A DNA stretch of 64,000 nucleotides, taken from Celeribacter sp. PS-C1 (GTDB lineage Bacteria; Pseudomonadota; Alphaproteobacteria; Rhodobacterales; Rhodobacteraceae). The translations under genes and the position numbers were made by a program. Shown one piece after another: positions 2,401-11,591 of this stretch (its first letter is position 1; each line of letters opens with the position of its first letter). The DNA lies in the NCBI RefSeq assembly GCF_019429625.1, contig NZ_JAHXRW010000001.1:372001-436000 (forward strand), written 5' to 3'. The notes under the pieces are model-generated. The model did not search any database, had not been told where the DNA came from, and saw only the letters and a list, made by a program, of their open reading frames with translations.

Positions 2401-2430
2401 AGGCCGCATTTATGAGCGTGCGGCCTTTTT
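2401..2430 (+). terminator. rho-independent terminator
   Basis: Perfect 8-bp stem AGGCCGCA / TGCGGCCT with a 10-base loop, followed by five T. It lies 64 bases after the secreted protein gene and ahead of the transglutaminase operon, so it separates the two transcription units. Confidence 0.8.
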
Positions 2431-2500: not shown

Positions 2501-5500
2501 ATGGCGATTTACGCATCGATCCACCACGTCACCCATTACAAATACGACCGCAATGTCGAGCTTGGGCCACAAATCATCCGCCTGCGACCGGCGCCACATT
2601 CGCGCACGCGGGTGATTTCGCACTCACTCAAGGTCACGCCCTCGGGTCATTTCGTGAACCATCAACAAGACCCCTATGGCAACTGGCAATCGCGTTTCGT
2701 CTTCCCGGAGCCGGTGCGCGAATTCAAGATCGAGGTCGATCTGGTGGCCGATATGACCGTCTACAACCCGTTCGATTTCTTCGTAGAGGAAAGTGCCGAA
2801 CATTGGCCGTTCGAGTATCCGCCGGAGTTGAAAGACGATCTGGTGATTTATCGCACACCTGAACCTGAAGGCCCGCTTTTGGCGCAATTTGTGGGCTCGA
2901 TTGATTTCAAGGAAACCCGCACGGTCGATTTTCTCGTCGGCCTCAACGCTCGGATTTCGGACTATGTCGATTATACGATCCGCATGGAGCCGGGGGTGCA
3001 GACGCCCGATGAAACGCTCTCGAAAAAATCCGGTTCCTGTCGAGATAGCTCGTGGCTCTTGGTGCAGGTGCTGCGTCACCTAGGCTTCGCCGCACGCTTT
3101 GTCTCCGGCTATCTCATCCAGCTCAAACCTGACCTCGAAGCGCTAGATGGGCCGTCTGGGACCGATCATGATTTCACAGATCTACATGCTTGGTGCGAGG
3201 TCTTCCTACCCGGCGCGGGCTGGATCGGGCTGGACCCAACCTCCGGGCTTTTGACCGGCGAAAGCCACATCCCGTTGGCTGCCACCCCGCATTACCAAAA
3301 CGCCGCACCGATTGCGGGCGGGTTCTCTTCGGTCGGCACGCCGGAGGTGTCGTTTGATTTCGACATGCAGGTCAAACGCGTTGCCGAACATCCCCGCATC
3401 ACGAAACCTTTCTCCGAGGAAAGCTGGGACCGGCTCAACGCGCTGGGTCATAAGGTGGACGAGGCGCTCAAAGAGGGCGATGTGCGTCTGACCATGGGCG
3501 GCGAGCCGACGTTCGTGTCGATCGACGACTTCGAGAGCGATGAATGGAACACTGCCGCTGTCGGACCGCAAAAACGGGCGCTTGCCGATCAGTTGATCCG
3601 GCGTCTGCAAACCCGTTTCGCGCCGGGAGGCTTTCTGCATTACGGGCAGGGCAAATGGTATCCGGGCGAAAGCCTGCCGCGCTGGACCTTTTCGCTCTAT
3701 TGGCGGCATGACGGAAAACCTGTGTGGAAGAACCCCGATCTGATCGCGAAAGAGGACACCCCCTCGCCCGCCACGCCGAAGGATGCCGGGGATTTCATGA
3801 CGAAATTCGCCGAGAATTTGGGTGTCGATCCGATCTGCGCGCAGCCCGCCTTTGAAGACCCCGGCGAGTGGATTTTGAAGGAGTCTCTCCTGCCGGAAAA
3901 CGTCACACCCGAGAATTCGAAACTCAAAAACCCCGAAGATCGCGCGCGCTTTGCCCGCGTCTTTTCGCGTGGTTTGACGGAGCCCTCGGGCTATGTCCTC
4001 CCGATCCAGAGATGGCAGTCGAAAGCCGGATCAAGTTGGCTTTCGGAAGTTTGGAAAACCCGGCGCGGGCATTTGTTCCTGATCCCCGGTGATAGCCCTG
4101 TGGGCTTCCGCCTGCCGCTCAATGCGCTGCCCTATATTGCGCCCTCGGCCTATCCCTATTCCTACCCGGCGGACCCGATGATGGACCACGCACCGCTGCC
4201 GGATTTTCATGCAGCCATGGACGAACGGCGCAAGAAATTCCGCGCCGAAGTCGACCGGTTGGAAAAAGAGGAAGCGGAGCGCGAGGCAAAAGAAGCCAAG
4301 GAACGCGCAGATATTCTGCCAAAAACATCAAAAGAGCATAGTCAGCCTGTATCCGAAGTGTCCGGCGATGAGACCGAGCGGCAAAAGATCATGGCTCAAG
4401 GCGTTGATCCGGCGGGCGGTCAGGTCCGTACCGCGATCACCATCGAGCCACGCGATGGGCGTCTGTGCCTCTTCATGCCGCCGTGCGAAACGCTTGAAGA
4501 TTATCTCGACTTGATCGCCACTGCGGAGACCACGGCCGAGGAGCTTGGCCTGCCGATCCATATCGAGGGCTATTCCCCGCCCCATGACCCGCGTCTGAAC
4601 GTGATCCGCGTCGCCCCCGATCCCGGCGTGATCGAGGTGAACATCCACCCGGCGCACAGCTGGGACGATTGTGTTGCGACGACCGAAGCGATCTACGAAG
4701 AGGCGCGTCAGTCGCGTCTGGGCGCTGACAAATTCATGATCGACGGGCGGCATACTGGCACGGGCGGCGGCAACCACGTTGTGGTCGGCGGTGCGACCCC
4801 GTCGGACTCGCCCTTTTTGCGGCGGCCCGATCTCTTGAAGTCGCTGATCCTGATCTGGCAACGCCACCCGTCGCTGTCCTATCTGTTCTCGGGCCTCTTC
4901 ATCGGGCCGACCTCGCAAGCCCCGCGCATCGACGAAGCGCGGCACGACACGCTTTATGAGCTGGAAATCGCCCTGTCGCAGATCAAGCCTCCCTCGGAGG
5001 CCGCTGTGCCGCCCGCGTGGTTGGTCGACCGTCTGCTTAGAAACATGCTCACGGATGTCACGGGTAACACCCACCGGGCGGAGATTTGCATCGACAAGCT
5101 GTTCTCTCCTGATGGCCCGACCGGGCGTCTGGGGTTGGTCGAATTCCGCGGCTTCGAGATGCCGCCGGACCCGCGCATGTCTCTCGCGCAACAGCTCTTG
5201 CTCAGGGCTATCATCGCGCGCTGTTGGAACGCGCCCGTTGAGGGCAAGCCGGTGCGCTGGGGCACCGTGCTGCACGACCGTTTCATGTTGCCGCACTATC
5301 TGTGGGAAGACCTGCTTTCGCTCCTTGCGGATCTCAAACATCATGGCTTCGACATGGACCCAGAATGGTTCAAGGCGCAGGCTGAATTCCGATTCCCGTT
5401 CTGCGGTCAGATTGAGGCCGAAGGTGTGCATCTTGAGGTGCGACAAGCGCTGGAGCCCTGGCATGTTCTGGGCGAAACCGGTGCGATTGGCGGTACGGTG

Positions 5501-5944
5501 CGCTACACCGACAGTTCGGTCGAGCGGCTACAGGTCAAGATGACGACACTGCATCAGGATCGCTACCGGATCATGTGCAACCAAAGGCCGATCCCCTTGG
5601 CGAAAACCCAAACCTCGGGTGTGTCCGTCGCCGGTGTCCGGTTCAAGGCTTGGCAACCGCCAGAGGCGCTGCACCCGGTTTTGCCGGTTAATGCGCCTTT
5701 GCATTTCGACATCTATGACGACTGGACAGGCCGGCCCATCGCCGGTTGCACCTATCATGTGGCGCATCCGGGCGGGCGGAATTACGACACTTTCCCGGTG
5801 AACGGCAACGAGGCCGAAGCCCGGCGTTTGGCGCGGTTTGAACCCTATGGTCACACCCCGGGAAGCTATACACCCGGAACAGAAGTGCCACACCCGGAGT
5901 TTCCCTTGACGCTTGACCTCAGACGGCCCATTGGGCTTGTCTGA
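2501..5944 (+). CDS. transglutaminase-like / DUF2126 amidoligase fusion protein
   Basis: A very large two-part cytoplasmic protein of 1147 residues. Residues 1-290 are a bacterial transglutaminase-like region: a beta-rich N-terminal part (HYKYDRNVELGPQIIRLRP), then the papain-like triad Cys180 (KSGSCRDSS), His229 (DLHAWCEVF) and Asp245 (GWIGLDPTSG). From about residue 325 it becomes DUF2126, which Iyer and Aravind predicted to be a glutamine-synthetase-fold peptide amidoligase. Motifs there include LTMGGEPTFV, GKWYPGE, VIEVNIHP, and HTGTGGGNHVVVGG. A charged, probably coiled linker lies near residues 569-640. The start at 2501 matches the usual family opening MAIYASIHH; an in-frame ATG at 2468 is possible but gives an unlikely extension. 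It heads a three-gene operon with an ATP-grasp/alpha-E protein and a second transglutaminase. The substrate is unknown. Confidence 0.93.
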   Translation: MAIYASIHHVTHYKYDRNVELGPQIIRLRPAPHSRTRVISHSLKVTPSGHFVNHQQDPYGNWQSRFVFPEPVREFKIEVDLVADMTVYNPFDFFVEESAEHWPFEYPPELKDDLVIYRTPEPEGPLLAQFVGSIDFKETRTVDFLVGLNARISDYVDYTIRMEPGVQTPDETLSKKSGSCRDSSWLLVQVLRHLGFAARFVSGYLIQLKPDLEALDGPSGTDHDFTDLHAWCEVFLPGAGWIGLDPTSGLLTGESHIPLAATPHYQNAAPIAGGFSSVGTPEVSFDFDMQVKRVAEHPRITKPFSEESWDRLNALGHKVDEALKEGDVRLTMGGEPTFVSIDDFESDEWNTAAVGPQKRALADQLIRRLQTRFAPGGFLHYGQGKWYPGESLPRWTFSLYWRHDGKPVWKNPDLIAKEDTPSPATPKDAGDFMTKFAENLGVDPICAQPAFEDPGEWILKESLLPENVTPENSKLKNPEDRARFARVFSRGLTEPSGYVLPIQRWQSKAGSSWLSEVWKTRRGHLFLIPGDSPVGFRLPLNALPYIAPSAYPYSYPADPMMDHAPLPDFHAAMDERRKKFRAEVDRLEKEEAEREAKEAKERADILPKTSKEHSQPVSEVSGDETERQKIMAQGVDPAGGQVRTAITIEPRDGRLCLFMPPCETLEDYLDLIATAETTAEELGLPIHIEGYSPPHDPRLNVIRVAPDPGVIEVNIHPAHSWDDCVATTEAIYEEARQSRLGADKFMIDGRHTGTGGGNHVVVGGATPSDSPFLRRPDLLKSLILIWQRHPSLSYLFSGLFIGPTSQAPRIDEARHDTLYELEIALSQIKPPSEAAVPPAWLVDRLLRNMLTDVTGNTHRAEICIDKLFSPDGPTGRLGLVEFRGFEMPPDPRMSLAQQLLLRAIIARCWNAPVEGKPVRWGTVLHDRFMLPHYLWEDLLSLLADLKHHGFDMDPEWFKAQAEFRFPFCGQIEAEGVHLEVRQALEPWHVLGETGAIGGTVRYTDSSVERLQVKMTTLHQDRYRIMCNQRPIPLAKTQTSGVSVAGVRFKAWQPPEALHPVLPVNAPLHFDIYDDWTGRPIAGCTYHVAHPGGRNYDTFPVNGNEAEARRLARFEPYGHTPGSYTPGTEVPHPEFPLTLDLRRPIGLV

Positions 5945-5970
5945 ACAGCACCAAGGAAAACGAAACCACA

Positions 5971-8391
5971 ATGTCGCAGCGCCTGATCTCAGGTTCCGCT
6001 CATCCGGATCTCTTTGCAGACTATCAGCAAAGCCCGGATGTGGCCGACGAGCTTTTTGACGCCACAGGCCAGATGCGGCCTGTGTGGCGGCGCTTTGTCG
6101 ATCGGTTCTCGCGGCTTTCACCCGAAGAAATTCGCGCGCGCTTTGAGCGAGGCGATCAATATCTGCGCGATGCGGGCGTGTTTTTTCGGCAATATTCCAA
6201 CGATCCGCTGACCGAGCGCGCTTGGCCGTTGAGCCATATTCCCGTGATCCTGCATGAGCTGGAATGGGAGCACATCTGTGCGGGCCTGTCCCAACGCGCG
6301 GACTTGTTGGAGCGCGTCATGGCCGATCTTTATGGGCCAGCGCAACTGGTCAGTGACGGGCATCTGCCGGCCGAACTGATCGCACGCTCGCCGCAATGGC
6401 TGCGCCCGATGGTGGGGGTTCAGCCGAAGGGCGGGCATTACCTGCATTTTCTGGCCTTCGAGATTGGCCGCTCTCCCGATGGCTCTTGGTTCGTTCTGGG
6501 TGACCGGACGCAGGCGCCCTCAGGGGCAGGCTTTGCGCTTGAGAACCGCATGGCAACGGGGCGGATTTTTCCTGAGCGCTTCCCGCGCGCGCACATTCAC
6601 AAACTCGCGGGGTTCTTCAGCGCGTTCCGGGATTCTATGGAAGACCTTGCGAGCGCGTCCTTCAAACATCCGCACGTTGCCGGGATCCTGACGCCGGGGC
6701 CGTCGAACGACACCTATTACGAACACACCTACATCGCGCGCTACCTTGGCATGATGCTGCTCGAAGGTGAGGACATCGTCGTCGAAAACGGCGAGGCCAT
6801 GGTGCGCACCATTGATGGCCTACGGCCTCTGGGGATGCTGTGGCGCAGGATCGACGCGAGCTTTGCCGATCCGCTGGAATTCAACGCACGTTCACAGATC
6901 GGCACTCCGGGGCTGATGGAAGCAGTGCGGACGGGTCATCTGGCGATGGCCAATGCGCTTGGTTCCGGCGTTCTGGAAATGCGTGCAATGATGGCGTTTC
7001 TGCCTCGGATCAGCGAGGTGCTGATGGGCGAGAGGCTCAAGCTGCCCAACATTGCGACTTGGTGGTGCGGCGGCGCGACGGAGCGCGCTTATGTCCACGG
7101 CAACGCTCAGAACATGCTGATCAGCCCGGCCCATGCGGTGGATCTGCCATTTGATCTTGGCGCGACCACGGCGCTGGGCGGGGAGTTCCGTGGCAGGGCG
7201 ATGGGCTCGATCGCGGATTGGCTCGACCGCGAGGGCGAAAAGCTGGTCGGGCAAGAGGCTGTCACGCTCTCGACGACGCCAGCATGGGAAGACAGCGAGG
7301 AGGGTGGCACCGTGGTGCCGCGTCCGATGACCGTGCGGGTCTTTGCCGCGCGCACGCCCATCGGCTGGCAATTCATGAAGGGCGGCTATGCTCGGATTGG
7401 CCGCTCTGGGGATGCGACTGCGCTTGCGATGCAGCGCGGCGGGTCTGTGGCCGATGTGTGGGTCGTTTCCGACCGGCCTTTGGCGAGAACCGGACCGCGA
7501 CAAGAGGACGGCGTCTCCTATCTGCGCACCAGCCCCGGACTTTTGCCGTCGCGTGCGGCGGACAACCTCTATTGGCTCGGCCGTTATGTGGAGCGGTTTG
7601 AGGATGCCGCGCGATTGGTGCGGGCCTATCACCTTCGTCTGGCGGCGACGGACAACCGCAATGATCCGCGCTTGAAGGCGCTGCGAGATTACCTTTTGGG
7701 CTTTGGGATCGACCTGAAACAGACGTTGCCTGAGGCCCTCATCGGGCGGATCATCGCTGCGCGCGGCTGTGCCACAAAGGTGCGAGACCGGTTTTCTGCC
7801 GATGGCCTGTCGGCGCTCAATGATCTGTTGCAAACCGCGATGCGGATGACGGCGACGGCGCAGCCCGGTGACGATTGCGCGCGGGCGACCTCTGTCTTGA
7901 TCCGCAAGATTGCGGGCATCACCGGGCTTGTGCATGAGAACATGTATCGCTCTGCAGGGTGGCGATTCCTGAGCCTTGGGCGGGAGTTGGAGCGCGCCGA
8001 TGCGATGGCGGCTTTGCTGGCGGAATTTGCCGACAGTGCGGCGCCCGAAGGTTCGCTCGATTTGGCGGTCGAAGTGGGCGACTCCATCATCACGCATCAA
8101 CGCCGCTACCGTGTGGAGACCAGCCGCAATGCCGTGGTCGATCTTTTGGCACTCGATGCCGACAACCCGCGAGCGATCCTGTTCCTGATCCGCGAGATGC
8201 GCAAACATGCCGAGGCCTTGCCGCAGGCGGAACTGCATGGTCGTCCGTCGGAGTTGCTGCGCGCGATCCTGCCTTTGGAGGCGCGGCTGACCTGTGCCCG
8301 TCCAGAAGAGGTGACGACGGAGTATCTCTTGGGCGTTCGGGCCGATCTGGCGCATGTGTCCGATCTGGTCTCTACGATCTATCTGAGGTGA
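5971..8391 (+). CDS. circularly permuted type 2 ATP-grasp protein fused to alpha-E domain
   Basis: An 806-residue fusion. Roughly residues 1-480 form the circularly permuted ATP-grasp ligase: QRADLLERVMADLYGPAQLV, PKGGHYLHFLAFEIGRSPDG, then VENGEAMVRTIDGLRPLGMLWRR in the nucleotide-binding half. From about residue 527 (DNLYWLGRYVERFEDAARLV) to the end is the all-helical alpha-E domain. In many bacteria these are separate neighbouring genes; here they are one polypeptide. ATP-grasp enzymes activate a carboxylate as acyl phosphate and join it to an amine, so the fusion is expected to make an amide or peptide bond. It starts 26 bases after the amidoligase gene and ends 3 bases before the second transglutaminase gene, so the three proteins are very probably coexpressed. 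Product and substrate are unknown. Confidence 0.92.
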   Translation: MSQRLISGSAHPDLFADYQQSPDVADELFDATGQMRPVWRRFVDRFSRLSPEEIRARFERGDQYLRDAGVFFRQYSNDPLTERAWPLSHIPVILHELEWEHICAGLSQRADLLERVMADLYGPAQLVSDGHLPAELIARSPQWLRPMVGVQPKGGHYLHFLAFEIGRSPDGSWFVLGDRTQAPSGAGFALENRMATGRIFPERFPRAHIHKLAGFFSAFRDSMEDLASASFKHPHVAGILTPGPSNDTYYEHTYIARYLGMMLLEGEDIVVENGEAMVRTIDGLRPLGMLWRRIDASFADPLEFNARSQIGTPGLMEAVRTGHLAMANALGSGVLEMRAMMAFLPRISEVLMGERLKLPNIATWWCGGATERAYVHGNAQNMLISPAHAVDLPFDLGATTALGGEFRGRAMGSIADWLDREGEKLVGQEAVTLSTTPAWEDSEEGGTVVPRPMTVRVFAARTPIGWQFMKGGYARIGRSGDATALAMQRGGSVADVWVVSDRPLARTGPRQEDGVSYLRTSPGLLPSRAADNLYWLGRYVERFEDAARLVRAYHLRLAATDNRNDPRLKALRDYLLGFGIDLKQTLPEALIGRIIAARGCATKVRDRFSADGLSALNDLLQTAMRMTATAQPGDDCARATSVLIRKIAGITGLVHENMYRSAGWRFLSLGRELERADAMAALLAEFADSAAPEGSLDLAVEVGDSIITHQRRYRVETSRNAVVDLLALDADNPRAILFLIREMRKHAEALPQAELHGRPSELLRAILPLEARLTCARPEEVTTEYLLGVRADLAHVSDLVSTIYLR

Positions 8392-8394
8392 GCA

Positions 8395-9294
8395 ATGCTG
8401 TATGAGATCAGCCTGACCATCGATTATAGCTATGATGCGGCCTCGGACCGGGCGCGGAATATTCTGCGGCTTTTGCCCTCGAATGTGGCGGGGGTGCAGC
8501 AGGTGCGTCAGAGGTTGTTGACCATCTTGCCACGCCCCGACGAGCGCCGAGATGGCTGGGATTTCTTCGGCAACGAGATGAGCATGGTGGCCTGGCATCA
8601 CCCGATCGATGCCATGTCTATGCAGCTCACGGCCCAAATCGAGCGCTTTGAACCTGCTTCGCTTTTTGATCTCTCGCCGCCTTTGGAAGAGTTGCGTGCC
8701 GAAATTCTCGCGTTGAAATCGCTGGCTCCTGATGCGCCGCATCACTTTCTCGCGGCCTCGCCGCGTGTGGCTTTGTCACCAAAGATTACGGATTATGGTT
8801 GGGACTGCATCACGGATGTGGGGGACGGAGTGACCGCCCTCAAAGCCGTCGAGGCCGTCGGGCGCGCGCTCAATCGTGACATGAGTTTCGACCCAGAGGC
8901 TACAGATGTGGACACGCCGCCCGAGGTGGCGTTTGAGAACCGGCATGGAGTCTGTCAGGATTTCGCCCATATTATGATCGCCGCCCTTAGGGGGATCGGC
9001 ATTCCGGCAGGCTATGTCTCAGGTTTTCTGCGCACCTTCCCGCCGCCCGGGCAACCTCGGCTCGAAGGGGCCGATGCCATGCACGCCTGGGTGCGGGCCT
9101 GGGTCGGTAAACAGGTGGGCTGGATTGAATTCGACCCGACGAACGATCAGTTCGCCGGGACGGATTATATTACAATCGGGCATGGCCGGGATTACGGCGA
9201 TGTGGCGCCGGTCAAAGGCGCCGTGCGCTCGGCCGGTGGGCACAGCACCCAGCAGGCCGTCGACGTCATCCCGCTCGAAGATGCGCCCGCTTAA
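8395..9294 (+). CDS. transglutaminase family protein (second, stand-alone)
   Basis: A 299-residue bacterial transglutaminase-like protein with no signal peptide. The N-terminal half (residues 1-160) is the usual beta-rich domain (MLYEISLTIDYSYD). The catalytic domain follows, with Cys187 in ENRHGVCQDFAHIM, His230 in ADAMHAWVRAW and Asp247 in GWIEFDPTND, so the papain-like triad is complete. Family members are peptidases or acyl transferases on amide bonds. In this operon it is the natural candidate to hydrolyse or exchange bonds made by the two ligases upstream. Its ATG follows the preceding stop by 3 bases. Its stop codon overlaps by 4 bases the stop codon of the convergent glutathionyl-hydroquinone reductase gene. 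Confidence 0.92.
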   Translation: MLYEISLTIDYSYDAASDRARNILRLLPSNVAGVQQVRQRLLTILPRPDERRDGWDFFGNEMSMVAWHHPIDAMSMQLTAQIERFEPASLFDLSPPLEELRAEILALKSLAPDAPHHFLAASPRVALSPKITDYGWDCITDVGDGVTALKAVEAVGRALNRDMSFDPEATDVDTPPEVAFENRHGVCQDFAHIMIAALRGIGIPAGYVSGFLRTFPPPGQPRLEGADAMHAWVRAWVGKQVGWIEFDPTNDQFAGTDYITIGHGRDYGDVAPVKGAVRSAGGHSTQQAVDVIPLEDAPA

Positions 9295-10253
9295 ACGGAC
9301 GCGATCAATGCTTCGATATGCGCCGGACCTGTCGGGCGGATGCGGTTGGGGTTCAAGGCCTTGATCGAGTAATAGCCCCGCGTAATGTGGTCCATATTCA
9401 CCGTTTCGGCCACACCCGGAAGGCGATAGATGCGCTCCATATAGGCCGTCAGACGCGGGTAATCCTTGATCTGTTTCAGGTTACATTTGAACACGCCGTG
9501 ATAGGCGGCATCAAAGCGGATCAGCGTCACGAAGGTGCGAATGTCGGTTTCCGTGATCCGGTCGCCAAAGAGGTAATCGCCGGTCAAACGGGTCTCTAGA
9601 TCGTCCAGCATCTCGAACACGCCCGCGACGGCTTCGTCATAGGCCTCTTGCGAGGTCGCAAAGCCGGCCTTGTAGACGCCGTTGTTCAGCTGGTCGTAGA
9701 TCACCGGATTGAGCGCATCGATCTCGGCTGCCAGATCGTCGGGGTAGAGTCGCAAATCGGAGGGTACGAGGTGCTCAAACGCCGTGTCGAACATACGCAC
9801 GATGTCGGCGCTCTCGTTGTTCACGATGGTGTTCGTCTTGGTATCCCAAAGAACCGGCACCGTGGCGCGGCCCGAGACATGCGGATCGGCGCGGGTGTAA
9901 AGCTCGTGGATATAGGTGGCACCAAACAGCGGGTCTTCGTCCGCGGCATCATAGCCACCAAATTGCCACCCCTGATCGGTCATCGTCGGGTTCACTACGG
10001 TCACGGAGATGTAGTCTTCGAGACCTTTCAATTTTCGCGCGATCAGCGTGCGCGAGGCCCAGGGGCAGATGAAAGCGACGTAAAGCCGGTAACGCCCGGC
10101 CTCCGCCTTGTATCCGGCCTCCCCGGTCGGCCCGGCAGAGCCGTCCGGGGTGATCCAGTTGCGAAAGCTCGACACTTGCCGAACGAAACGGCCTTTGGCG
10201 TCGGATTTTTGGACCGGGTCCCAGCTTTTGGACCATGTTCCGTCAACAAGCAT
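9291..10253 (-). CDS. glutathionyl-hydroquinone reductase (GST Xi class, YqjG/PcpF type)
   Basis: Reduces glutathionyl-hydroquinones using glutathione; cytoplasmic. Diagnostic is the catalytic motif CPWASR in a context (YRLYVAFICPWASRTLIARK) typical of YqjG/PcpF. Also diagnostic are the N-terminal loop with FRNWIT, the thioredoxin-fold cis-Pro region (ATVPVLWD) and the helical C-domain (LFGDRITETDIRTFVTLIRF). The 320-residue length fits. An AAGGAG ribosome site lies inside the stop region of the upstream dioxygenase gene, so the two are translated from one message. Together with the DODA-type dioxygenase and DoxX it forms a block seen in other proteobacteria and thought to deal with quinones or aromatics. 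Confidence 0.93.
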   Translation of the reverse strand: MLVDGTWSKSWDPVQKSDAKGRFVRQVSSFRNWITPDGSAGPTGEAGYKAEAGRYRLYVAFICPWASRTLIARKLKGLEDYISVTVVNPTMTDQGWQFGGYDAADEDPLFGATYIHELYTRADPHVSGRATVPVLWDTKTNTIVNNESADIVRMFDTAFEHLVPSDLRLYPDDLAAEIDALNPVIYDQLNNGVYKAGFATSQEAYDEAVAGVFEMLDDLETRLTGDYLFGDRITETDIRTFVTLIRFDAAYHGVFKCNLKQIKDYPRLTAYMERIYRLPGVAETVNMDHITRGYYSIKALNPNRIRPTGPAHIEALIASV

Positions 10254-10263
10254 GTCAAACTCC

Positions 10264-11082
10264 TTAGTAGTAGATAAAGCTGCGCATGGAGACCGAGCCG
10301 ATGTCGATCGAGTCGTTCATGAACAACAATTCGTCTTTCGCGTCGGACGCGCCCGCGATGGTCAGCGCCGGAAGATAGTGGTCCACCGAGGGGTGTGCCA
10401 TTTTCAGAAGATGGCCGAGACCGGCGCGATCCGTGATCGTTTTATGGTCACGCGCCTGAAGACGGTCGGTGAACAGTTGGTCGAAATCCAGCGCCCAGTC
10501 GTAGGGCGTCGAGCCATAGCGCATGGCGCGCAGGTTGTGCACGATGTTGCCAGAGCCGAGGATCAAGACGCCGCGGTTGCGCAGATCGGCCAACGCCTGC
10601 CCGATTTCGAGATGATGTTCGAGGTCCTTGGTCATGTCGATCGACAGCTGGAACACCGGCACATCCGCATCCGGGTAGAGGAACTTCAGCACCGACCATG
10701 CCCCGTGATCCAGACCCCATGTGTCATCGCCTTCGGCGTGGTGGCTGGCCAGAAGGCTGATCACCTCTTGGGCCACCTCAGGAGCGCCGGGGGCAGGGTA
10801 CTGTTGGGCGAAAAGCTCGTCCGGGAAGCCATAGAAATCGTGAATCGTCTTCGGCATTTTCGAGACGTTCACCAAGGTCGATCCGCGAGTCATCCAGTGT
10901 GCGGAGACTACGAGAATGGCCTGCGGCTGGGGCAGGGACTCGCCCAGTTTTTTCCAGCTGCGGGAATAGCCGTTGTCCTCGATGGCGTTCATCGGGCTGC
11001 CGTGACCCAGAAAGACCACCGGCATCCGGTCGGAAGATTTGAGGCTGTCTTTGAGCCGTTGAAGTTGCTGTGCAATGCTCAT
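10264..11082 (-). CDS. ygiD: class III extradiol ring-cleavage dioxygenase, 4,5-DOPA dioxygenase (YgiD) family
   Basis: Non-heme metal enzyme of the LigB/DODA superfamily, which opens catechol-like rings. The metal-site motifs are visible: MPVVFLGHGSPMNAIEDN near residue 20, AILVVSAHWMTRG, and GLDHGAWSVLKFLYPD. GSGNIVHNLRAM follows. Length (272 residues) matches YgiD. A strong AAGGAGA ribosome site precedes the ATG. Middle gene of the DoxX-YgiD-GST set on the minus strand. The true substrate is unknown; YgiD-type enzymes act on DOPA-like catechols in vitro. Confidence 0.9.
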   Translation of the reverse strand: MSIAQQLQRLKDSLKSSDRMPVVFLGHGSPMNAIEDNGYSRSWKKLGESLPQPQAILVVSAHWMTRGSTLVNVSKMPKTIHDFYGFPDELFAQQYPAPGAPEVAQEVISLLASHHAEGDDTWGLDHGAWSVLKFLYPDADVPVFQLSIDMTKDLEHHLEIGQALADLRNRGVLILGSGNIVHNLRAMRYGSTPYDWALDFDQLFTDRLQARDHKTITDRAGLGHLLKMAHPSVDHYLPALTIAGASDAKDELLFMNDSIDIGSVSMRSFIYY

Positions 11083-11167
11083 GGCCGTCTCCTTTCAGAG
11101 GCTGATGTCTTAGAGTAGGTTACGAGGCCGCGCCGGGAAAGACGCGGCTCTCACACAGTCTTTGTGT

Positions 11168-11572
11168 TTATTTGCGTTTGAGCGGGTAGAGCGCATAGGC
11201 GCCATCGCCGAGCAGAACCAAAGCGGCCTGAACCATCGCCCACATCGCCGGATATTCCCAGCCGCCGCCGGTGTTGGCAAAGCCAAAGCCGTTGCCCCAG
11301 TGGGCAAAGATCACGGCACCCAGAAGCGGGAAGATGAGGGCGGCAGAGACGAGCCGTGTCGCGACGCCGAGGATCAGGGCAAGACCGCCTGCGATCTCAG
11401 CGATCATGGTCAGAATGCCGAGCCACCCGGGCAGGTCAAGGCTTTCGAAAAAGCCAGCGGTGCCGCCGGGGGTGAAGACGAAGAACTTCGTCAGCCCGTG
11501 GGCAAGAAACAGTCCACCCGTGGTTAGGCGCAGAAGCAGGGCGGCGTAGGGAGCGGTTTTTTGGTCAATCAT
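11168..11572 (-). CDS. DoxX family inner-membrane protein
   Basis: A 134-residue protein with four transmembrane helices (AALLLRLTTGGLFLAHGLTK, then GWLGILTMIAEIAGGLALILG, VSAALIFPLLGAVIFAH, and a C-terminal helix). DoxX proteins are widespread small membrane proteins, in several cases linked to redox or quinone stress. The start at 11572 is preceded by GGAGAG; an ATG 12 bases upstream is less likely. It is the promoter-proximal gene of the block with the dioxygenase and hydroquinone reductase. It is divergent from a LysR gene, its probable regulator. A 10-bp perfect inverted repeat lies just upstream. Confidence 0.88.
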   Translation of the reverse strand: MIDQKTAPYAALLLRLTTGGLFLAHGLTKFFVFTPGGTAGFFESLDLPGWLGILTMIAEIAGGLALILGVATRLVSAALIFPLLGAVIFAHWGNGFGFANTGGGWEYPAMWAMVQAALVLLGDGAYALYPLKRK

Positions 11573-11591
11573 AGGTCTCTCCATCTATCTT

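Follow-up and report, generated by a model that had tools for sequence, protein, structure and literature searches.

The operon at positions 2501-9294 of the window, by which we mean the whole stretch of 64,000 nucleotides analysed, had been read in its initial annotation as an undescribed peptide-ligation system with two amide-bond-forming ligases. This raises the question of whether its three proteins form such a system or one part of a larger set that has already been predicted.

Layout of the operon and its flanks

The open reading frames and Pfam matches bore out the annotated layout of three plus-strand genes (2501-5944, 5971-8391 and 8395-9294) with spacers of 26 and 3 bases, in which circularly permuted ATP-grasp, alpha-E, transglutaminase-like and GS-like (DUF2126) genes all adjoin. 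The features are as follows.

2401..2430, + strand: candidate terminator-like hairpin (8-bp stem, 10-nt loop, T run; read by eye)
2501..5944, + strand: gene 1, 1147 aa, fusion of a transglutaminase-like domain with DUF2126, a GS-like putative amidoligase (ORF, Pfam)
3038-3040, 3185-3187 and 3233-3235, + strand: gene 1 triad codons C180, H229 and D245 (alignment)
3344..5923, + strand: DUF2126 domain, residues 282-1141 (Pfam)
5971..8391, + strand: gene 2, 806 aa, circularly permuted ATP-grasp, degenerate in its catalytic residues, followed by a fused alpha-E (ORF, Pfam, alignment)
6241..7398, + strand: ATP-grasp domain, residues 91-476 (alignment)
7543..8385, + strand: Alpha-E domain, residues 525-805 (Pfam PF04168)
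8395..9294, + strand: gene 3, a further transglutaminase-like protein of 299 aa (ORF, Pfam, alignment)
8953-8955, 9082-9084 and 9133-9135, + strand: gene 3 triad codons C187, H230 and D247 (alignment)

Gene 1 matched Bact_transglu_N (92.7 bits), Transglut_core (56.7) and DUF2126 (1327.1, profile positions 4-826 of 826), gene 2 matched CP_ATPgrasp_2 (421.8), CP_ATPgrasp_1 (272.3) and Alpha-E (182.6), and gene 3 matched Transglut_core (70.2) and Bact_transglu_N (53.6). Every match lies above its curated cut-off, so the domain matches are not due to chance. We take DUF2126 to be COG4196. A GTG at 2468 is a possible start of the mechanical ORF of gene 1; homologue alignments begin at the ATG at 2501. 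The candidate hairpin, which would form the boundary between the operon and the upstream gene, is missing from the hairpin scan because its loop exceeds the permitted loop length.

The compression of the parts into three polypeptides by two fusions, singled out in the initial annotation, turned out to be the standard form: the transglutaminase-DUF2126 fusion occurs in 80/80 relatives, and the ATP-grasp/alpha-E fusion adjoins it in 69 of 73. It is an unexceptional example of a gene set that is widespread in bacteria and has long been predicted to form or cleave bonds like those of peptides. The same gene set was reportedly predicted as a peptide-tagging/amidoligase system by Iyer, Abhiman, Burroughs and Aravind in 2009, so that the label "undescribed" probably does not apply. 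For the version of the set that contains Anbu, the excerpts of PMC5666114 and PMC6376114 credit Iyer et al. 2009.

The window neighbours of the operon (GST family, LigB-type dioxygenase and DoxX) were rejected as parts of the system, as they had no blastp match at 1e-20 across 80 loci. Among the 40 largest flanking clusters listed for these loci, no transporter or amine dehydrogenase was generally conserved next to the set. The top family of this ranking, which leaves out the three operon genes and ORFs in overlapping frames, was an ABC transporter ATPase (23/80 loci, either strand).

Catalytic residues of the three proteins

Both papain-like triads are intact, in line with the initial annotation. 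The Cys-His-Asp triad of transglutaminase-like and papain-like enzymes was found in gene 1, where Cys180, His229 and Asp245 are the same in 81/81 alignment rows, and in gene 3, where Cys187 and His230 are retained in 72/72 rows and Asp247 in 71/72 (one gap). The proposal that DUF2126 is a GS-like ligase candidate also held at that strength, and the GS-like domain is apparently permuted. Its eight candidate GS-like motif residues (E335, E689, D707, E712, H759, R859, E881 and R883), assigned by motif reading and a non-significant alignment to E. coli GlnA, are invariant in all 81 rows. In a Foldseek search with the DUF2126 model (pLDDT 74.8), GS-family chains ranked top without reaching significance (best E 0.02, TM-score 0.15 by query; 0/242 hits with E<=0.001), and hhalign of DUF2126 against GS gave a non-significant probability below 1%.

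The claim of a second ligase was not supported, as the gene 2 ATP-grasp lacks the catalytic residues. Their roles are presumably those of E330, N332, K498 and K533 of E. coli Gss, with the correspondence set by motif. In gene 2, the metal-ligand pair E..N is replaced by G177 and R179 (6499-6507), the ATP lysines by R338 (6982-6984) and S385 (7123-7125), and the glycine-rich loop is gone. Because metal ligands, both ATP lysines and loop are all lost, the domain is, as judged from its residues, not credible as a ligase. It belongs to a degenerate type that a single split with support of 100/100 divides from the live-type paralogues in the tree. All four residues are present in 26/26 live-type rows, as against none in 76 and one in 10 of the 86 degenerate rows, and the three loop glycines are jointly present in 26/26 live versus 1/86 degenerate rows. 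The single retained residue is the second lysine in eight rows, the glutamate in one, the first lysine in one and the asparagine in none. The metal pair and the first lysine are thus each absent in at least 85/86 rows, which span alpha-, beta- and gammaproteobacteria and Acidobacteriota. Loss of the second lysine is not universal in this type, as it persists in 8/86 rows, including Enterobacter, Granulicella and three Burkholderia. The alpha-E part of gene 2 keeps both ER motifs (E541/R542 and E674/R675), of which E541, R542 and E674 are invariant and R675 almost so (37 rows, alignment A3). The excerpts found on the set and its relatives contain no mention of this degenerate ATP-grasp.

The live paralogue set and nitrogen limitation

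A second locus of the same genome, on contig C12, carries a live ATP-grasp, alpha-E, a transglutaminase and the Ntn-hydrolase peptidase Anbu. The earlier statement that no proteasome-like peptidase lies next to the operon is correct, as Anbu adjoins the set neither in the window nor in any of 80 relatives (66 with more than 4 kb upstream), and is misleading for the genome. Anbu adjoins DUF2126 in a few other genomes (L119, L120 and L141), and of the 23 class-draw genomes that carry DUF2126, 17 contained it, while in 6 it was not found.

Live circularly permuted ATP-grasp was found in 23/23 genomes with DUF2126 versus 36/121 without it in the class draw, and in 92/92 versus 79/207 in the phylum draw, both being raw counts uncorrected for phylogeny and genome size; with the draws united, it was present in 112/112 DUF2126 genomes. 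The class draw also held four genomes with a pseudo-ATP-grasp and no DUF2126, and four DUF2126 genomes in which no pseudo-ATP-grasp was found (one of them, G106, being a fragment), where the live-type query may miss remote degenerate copies. The live and DUF2126 sets form joint clusters at L116, L117 and L118 and partly at L126, and they lie together in 6 of 11 plasmid-collection loci (L136, L137, L140, L142, L145 and L148). At L143, L146 and L147 the two sets do not lie within 9 kb of each other, and among the 80 named relatives the two sets are adjacent in only one (L110). L149 was left out of the analysed loci. The co-occurrence in 112/112 genomes, together with the joining of the sets in some of them, suggests that the window operon is the accessory half, with a GS-like DUF2126, two cysteine triads and a pseudo-ATP-grasp. 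It appears to depend on the live ATP-grasp copy at the other locus.

A joint cluster in Burkholderia cenocepacia offers a view of its regulation. In an ntrC mutant under nitrogen limitation, four genes (I35_5080-5083) were lowered in expression, at log2 -8.2, -9.4, -9.4 and -6.0 (PMC5491218, as excerpted). We assigned them to the start of the joint cluster, and took the fourth as transglutaminase-DUF2126 by gene order and by locus L140 of another strain; the last two genes, which bear the pseudo-ATP-grasp, are unnamed in the excerpt of PMC5491218. The NtrC regulon described there also includes urease, amine and dipeptide uptake genes. This NtrC/sigma54 dependence, as far as the excerpt goes, points to a link with nitrogen limitation. 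Sigma54-like sites were found upstream of live ATP-grasp genes at 7/27 loci (p<=0.01), with none upstream of the C12 live set, and in A. caldus ntrC and glnL lie close to the gene set. A sigma54 site at the window operon was rejected: there is no -24/-12 site directly before it, and the counts are at chance level both in the window (12 matches versus 12.6 expected) and across 79 upstream regions, one from the window and 78 from other loci, of which 3 had a site at p<=0.05.

Proposed function and related systems

The window set shares circularly permuted ATP-grasp, alpha-E, GS-like DUF2126 and transglutaminase-like parts with the system reportedly predicted by Iyer et al., and differs in its degenerate ATP-grasp, with Anbu at another locus and the live ATP-grasp in trans. 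With pupylation (PafA, Dop, Pup and proteasome), which is tied to nitrogen starvation in mycobacteria, it has in common a candidate GS-fold ligase, a proteasome relative and a probable link to nitrogen shortage; it differs by its additional papain-like and ATP-grasp parts and its apparently permuted GS-like domain. The Anbu operon, as far as the excerpts of PMC5666114 and PMC6376114 describe it, has paralogous ATP-grasp, alpha-E and transglutaminase genes, with a full copy on C12; in the window operon Anbu does not adjoin, DUF2126 is added, and the ATP-grasp is degenerate and fused to alpha-E. In the Yersinia study (PMC6376114, partial text), the live-type ATP-grasp of that operon freed phosphate from ATP, and neither peptidase activity of Anbu nor any specific interaction among the operon proteins was found. 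The B. cenocepacia cluster (PMC5491218, excerpt) is built from the same families, and unlike in the window, its live and DUF2126 sets are adjacent and the four genes are transcribed under NtrC/sigma54 control. The rlo operon of Pseudomonas, with an inactive membrane-bound transglutaminase and a RimK-like ATP-grasp, is a different system in the excerpt of PMC12239564. Two further leads were dropped on the text available: PMC4264754 names a proteasome-type protein in a list that gives no context, and PMC10318531 yielded only a citation. A search for DUF2126 returned no papers, and the literature found held neither an enzyme assay of any DUF2126-module protein nor an established substrate or product of the set, in agreement with the initial annotation.

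We favour, by somewhat better than an even chance, a reading in which the three genes supply the DUF2126 accessory module to a predicted amide-ligase system of wide distribution, with its live core on C12 and a role in nitrogen metabolism. The live ATP-grasp with alpha-E would convert a carboxylate to an acyl phosphate and join it to an amine, and the pseudo-ATP-grasp/alpha-E protein would be its non-catalytic partner, binding substrate or organising the complex. In the manner of GmaS, PuuA or PafA, DUF2126 would form an amide by activating a further carboxylate, one that is glutamate-like, and the papain-like triads, one of them in cis on DUF2126, may transfer or cut the amide via a thioester. 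Anbu, where present, might remove or degrade the product. Proteins, peptides and small amines are all conceivable acceptors, and the system would serve nitrogen economy at nitrogen limitation, as suggested by the expression of its relatives. A more specific form is speculative and in our view unlikely: a Pup-independent conjugation at nitrogen limitation, encoded at two loci, in which live ATP-grasp and permuted GS-like ligase, held by pseudo-ATP-grasp/alpha-E, place an isopeptide tag on proteins or peptides that the triads edit and Anbu recycles.

Small-amine nitrogen scavenging, in which DUF2126 would make gamma-glutamyl-type amides of amines or polyamines like GmaS and PuuA and the triads would hydrolyse them without any protein tag, is also unlikely, with an appreciable chance of being right. 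Gamma-glutamylmethylamide synthetases, alongside further GS-family chains, head the non-significant fold ranking of the DUF2126 model, the excerpted NtrC regulon is shared with the urease and uptake genes, and Anbu was not found in 6/23 DUF2126 genomes. However, such a pathway would not need as many parts as two ligase folds plus alpha-E and a pseudo-ATP-grasp, and the listed flanking clusters hold no generally conserved transporter or amine dehydrogenase, the ABC ATPase at 23 loci being the best. Rather improbable is a degradative or peptide-recycling unit in which the triads simply cleave and DUF2126 is no ligase. Transglutaminase-like cores are often hydrolases, and sequence relatives in the PDB include the putative cysteine protease 3isr; such a unit would also fit the presence of Anbu in 17/23 genomes. 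It is opposed by the eight GS-motif candidates retained in 81/81 rows and by the finding of DUF2126 only in genomes with a live-type ATP-grasp (112/112 surveyed). A degradative role for Anbu is favoured in the excerpt of PMC5666114, which argues for it as a protein-degrading protease and rates peptide synthesis less likely.

That gene 2 is a second active ligase, binding ATP via a rearranged site, is very improbable. Its ATP-grasp fold is retained (model pLDDT 85.7; match to 3n6x with E 1.3e-28 and to glutathione synthetases), D300, N328, G331, R193 and R456 are present in 86/86 degenerate rows, so the domain is under constraint, and eight rows keep the second lysine. Against this, the window protein is without all four residues and the loop, and the near-complete loss of the metal pair and first lysine extends across the four groups named above.

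Under the accessory-module reading, the gene 2 protein assayed alone as a ligase would probably be inactive, and the system would be misjudged. The family is widespread (DUF2126 in 92/299 phylum-draw genomes, 28 families) and has no established function in the literature found. Its role is now testable, since a protein expected to use ATP can be told from one that is not, DUF2126 was found only with a live ATP-grasp, and four joint-cluster genes depend on NtrC in one species.

Architecture of the operon in relatives

Open reading frames and Pfam matches confirmed the three-gene layout and the domains named in the initial annotation, with gaps of 26 and 3 bases between the genes. The operon and its flanking genes are as follows:

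1735-2337, + strand, open reading frame upstream of the operon, no Pfam match
2501-5944, + strand, gene 1, transglutaminase-DUF2126
5971-8391, + strand, gene 2, ATP-grasp/alpha-E
8395-9294, + strand, gene 3, transglutaminase
9291-11584, - strand, GST-family protein, LigB-type dioxygenase and DoxX (Pfam)

By eye, the upstream frame could be guessed to encode a secreted ClpP-like protein. The GST/LigB/DoxX set is separate and convergent with the operon, the reading frames overlapping by 4 bases, and its GST-family protein presumably resembles glutathionyl-hydroquinone reductase.

Both Cys-His-Asp triads proved intact: that of gene 1 was conserved in 81/81 rows of an alignment of the window with 80 named loci, and that of gene 3 (window, the paralogue on contig C12 of the same genome, and 70 of the 80 loci) in 72/72 rows for Cys, 72/72 for His and 71/72 for Asp, with one gap. 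The compression by two fusions that the initial annotation pointed out is the standard architecture. The transglutaminase-DUF2126 fusion was present in 80/80 named relatives, a sample biased to close kin because it takes only the 80 top-ranking loci from at least 593 candidates. The ATP-grasp/alpha-E fusion came next in 69 of the 73 relatives with at least 3.7 kb downstream (7 of the 80 loci were shorter and left out of this count) and was absent from that position in four (L042, L070, L076, L096). A second transglutaminase followed in 68 of those 69; it is present in the 69th (L091) too, where the predicted frame begins too far upstream. Among the 80 relatives we found no generally conserved further neighbours, and the proteasome-like peptidase Anbu adjoined the DUF2126 set in none, 66 of them having more than 4 kb upstream. 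DUF2126 occurred in 7 of the 23 genomes listed of the window's own family, and its distribution is thus patchy.

Gene 2 as a predicted pseudo-ATP-grasp and DUF2126 as a candidate ligase

The assignment of gene 2 as an amide-bond-forming ATP-grasp was not borne out, and the gene is predicted from its residues to encode a pseudo-ATP-grasp. The model (pLDDT 85.7) adopts the ATP-grasp fold, matching 3n6x (E 1.3e-28) as well as glutathione synthetases and E. coli Gss (2io7, 2io8). G177, R179, R338 and S385 replace the E..N, K and K of the C12 paralogue and 3n6x, and the glycine-rich loop of both is lost. By analogy with E. coli Gss, E..N would serve the metal, the first lysine ATP, and the second lysine together with the loop ATP. 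This correspondence was drawn by motif because hhalign found none; E330, N332, K498 and K533, the Gss residues with these roles, are present in its sequence.

Proteins were sorted as live or degenerate by the best-matching paralogue, independently of the four diagnostic residues. All four were kept in 26/26 live rows, whereas 76 of the 86 degenerate rows, the window's included, had none and 10 had one (E once, N never, the first lysine once, the second eight times); the three loop glycines stood together in 1/86 degenerate versus 26/26 live rows. Since the second lysine persists in eight rows, among them Enterobacter, Granulicella, Azospirillum and three Burkholderia, its loss would be later or piecemeal. 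A 60-row tree, built from the 26 live and 34 of the 86 degenerate rows, split the two types at one branch with support 100/100, and the degenerate side spans beta- and gammaproteobacteria and Granulicella (Acidobacteriota), which makes loss of the metal site look old. Conservation of R193, D300, N328, G331 and R456 in 86/86 degenerate rows argues that the protein is constrained and not decaying. It appears more variable than DUF2126, with 28-69% identity to the window (A3, 36 relatives) versus 58-82% (A2, 40 relatives) in different sets of loci.

The DUF2126 model was moderate (pLDDT 74.8). In Foldseek, GS-family chains took 11 of the top 12 ranks, led by gamma-glutamylmethylamide synthetase (TM-score 0.15 by query, 0.24 by target), none significantly (0/242 hits at E<=0.001). 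Comparison with GlnA by hhalign, also at non-significant scores, placed GGEPTF on the EPEF strand, GVIEV on GQNEV and GGGNH on GSGMH, and aligned the DUF2126 C-terminus with the GlnA N-terminus, the pattern expected of circular permutation. Together with these rankings and alignments, the identity of E335, E689, D707, E712, H759, R859, E881 and R883 in 81/81 rows makes DUF2126 a credible candidate ATP-dependent ligase, and the only one in the operon.

A live ATP-grasp and Anbu elsewhere in the genome

A proteasome-family search of the same genome matched two places: C1:166704, a strong match that we take to be a putative HslV, and contig C12, where the match adjoins another transglutaminase (locus L008):

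5173-6597, cpATP-grasp, live paralogue
ending at 7552, alpha-E
7559-8368, transglutaminase
8378-9109, Anbu (PF00227, 38 bits)

As the initial annotation noted, the peptidase is not beside the window operon; the genome does have it, in the paralogous one. The genome has two alpha-E family matches, one per set. A further transglutaminase-core protein, lacking a Bact_transglu_N match, lies on contig C6 (L009, 5421-6197).

With p-values that ignore kinship and genome size, the live type occurred in 23/23 genomes with DUF2126 versus 36/121 without in the class draw (n=144; DUF2126 in 23, Anbu in 46, live type in 59; Fisher 5e-11), Anbu in 17/23 versus 29/121 (8e-6), and the live type in 92/92 versus 79/207 in the phylum draw (n=299; 2e-29), where it was called from each genome's best E among the matches listed. 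The phylum-draw DUF2126 genomes fall into 28 families; a rough hand check with 28 independent families and an assumed base rate of 0.7 gives about 5e-5. The weakest of the 171 phylum-draw calls was 1.6e-143, well separated from the degenerate type, which reached 5.5e-97 at best (class draw). The live type was also present in 46/46 Anbu genomes of the class draw and, with both draws united, in 112/112 DUF2126 genomes. All 22 class-draw genomes with the degenerate protein have the live type; 18 carry DUF2126 and four do not (G010, G036, G046, G059). With a live-type query, which remote copies may escape, the degenerate protein was not found in DUF2126 genomes G020, G076, G124 and G134; nor was it found in G106, which has DUF2126 and where a contig end cuts the alpha-E/transglutaminase piece (L126). 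In G010, outside the class-draw DUF2126 matches, a pseudo-ATP-grasp/alpha-E fusion and a transglutaminase occur without DUF2126 (L135, 4830-8523).

By match coordinates, DUF2126 and the live ATP-grasp lie side by side in 5/23 class genomes. G034, G142 and G028 (L116-L118) share the order transglutaminase-DUF2126, pseudo-ATP-grasp/alpha-E, transglutaminase, live ATP-grasp, alpha-E; in G020 (L121) and G076 (L119), the latter also with Anbu, the live pair is divergent from DUF2126. Among the 80 named relatives the sets adjoin only in a Nitrospirales MAG (L110, 5293-14864), where the DUF2126 set lies next to, and divergent from, a live ATP-grasp/alpha-E pair. The live and degenerate sets occur together in 6 of 11 plasmid-collection loci analysed. 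Burkholderia cenocepacia (L140), stagnalis (L145) and arboris (L148) carry a joint six-gene cluster: live ATP-grasp, alpha-E, transglutaminase, transglutaminase-DUF2126, pseudo-ATP-grasp/alpha-E, transglutaminase. Two Caballeronia (L136, L137) have both sets, the halves of L136 being separated by an opposite-strand metallopeptidase gene. The sixth locus (L142, NZ_CP116251.1, 8760-17957), from an IncFII plasmid of Enterobacter roggenkampii, holds the full five-gene set next to arsC and insertion sequences, a context suggesting that the system is transferable between bacteria. Outside these six, Halomonas L144 has both sets, broken. An Acidithiobacillus caldus megaplasmid (L141, NZ_CP005987.1, 2299-14171) carries two Anbu-like genes, unfused transglutaminase and DUF2126, alpha-E and a live ATP-grasp, and lies close to ntrC and glnL; pseudo-ATP-grasp was not found at this locus, and in L143, L146 and L147 the live set was not found within 9 kb.

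Nitrogen regulation and reading of the operon

Under nitrogen limitation, an ntrC mutant of B. cenocepacia H111 expressed I35_5080-5083 (DUF404/407, DUF403, transglutaminase-like and 'large' transglutaminase-like) at levels lower by log2 8.2, 9.4, 9.4 and 6.0, and the study counts these genes among the NtrC/sigma54 targets; the last two genes of the Burkholderia cluster are not named in the available part of that source (PMC5491218). From L140, another strain, we infer that I35_5080-5083 would correspond to genes one to four of the six in that cluster. In P. putida, PP2685-2687, one transglutaminase-like, were up 11.1-, 6.6- and 7.1-fold in a table's first column, which we take to be nitrogen versus carbon limitation (PMC3325844, available part). 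The available part of PMC5666114 refers to work in which nitrogen limitation induced Anbu in P. putida, but also to unchanged expression under other conditions, and prefers protein degradation to peptide synthesis for Anbu. Sigma54-like sites preceded the live ATP-grasp in 7/27 loci at p<=0.01 versus 0.3 expected from mononucleotide shuffles, including two each from Caballeronia and Burkholderia; in the third Burkholderia the same site reaches p 0.09. None was found before the window operon or its C12 counterpart.

The window operon is genuine and an ordinary representative of a predicted system that is already known; it fits better as the accessory half accompanying a live ATP-grasp encoded elsewhere.
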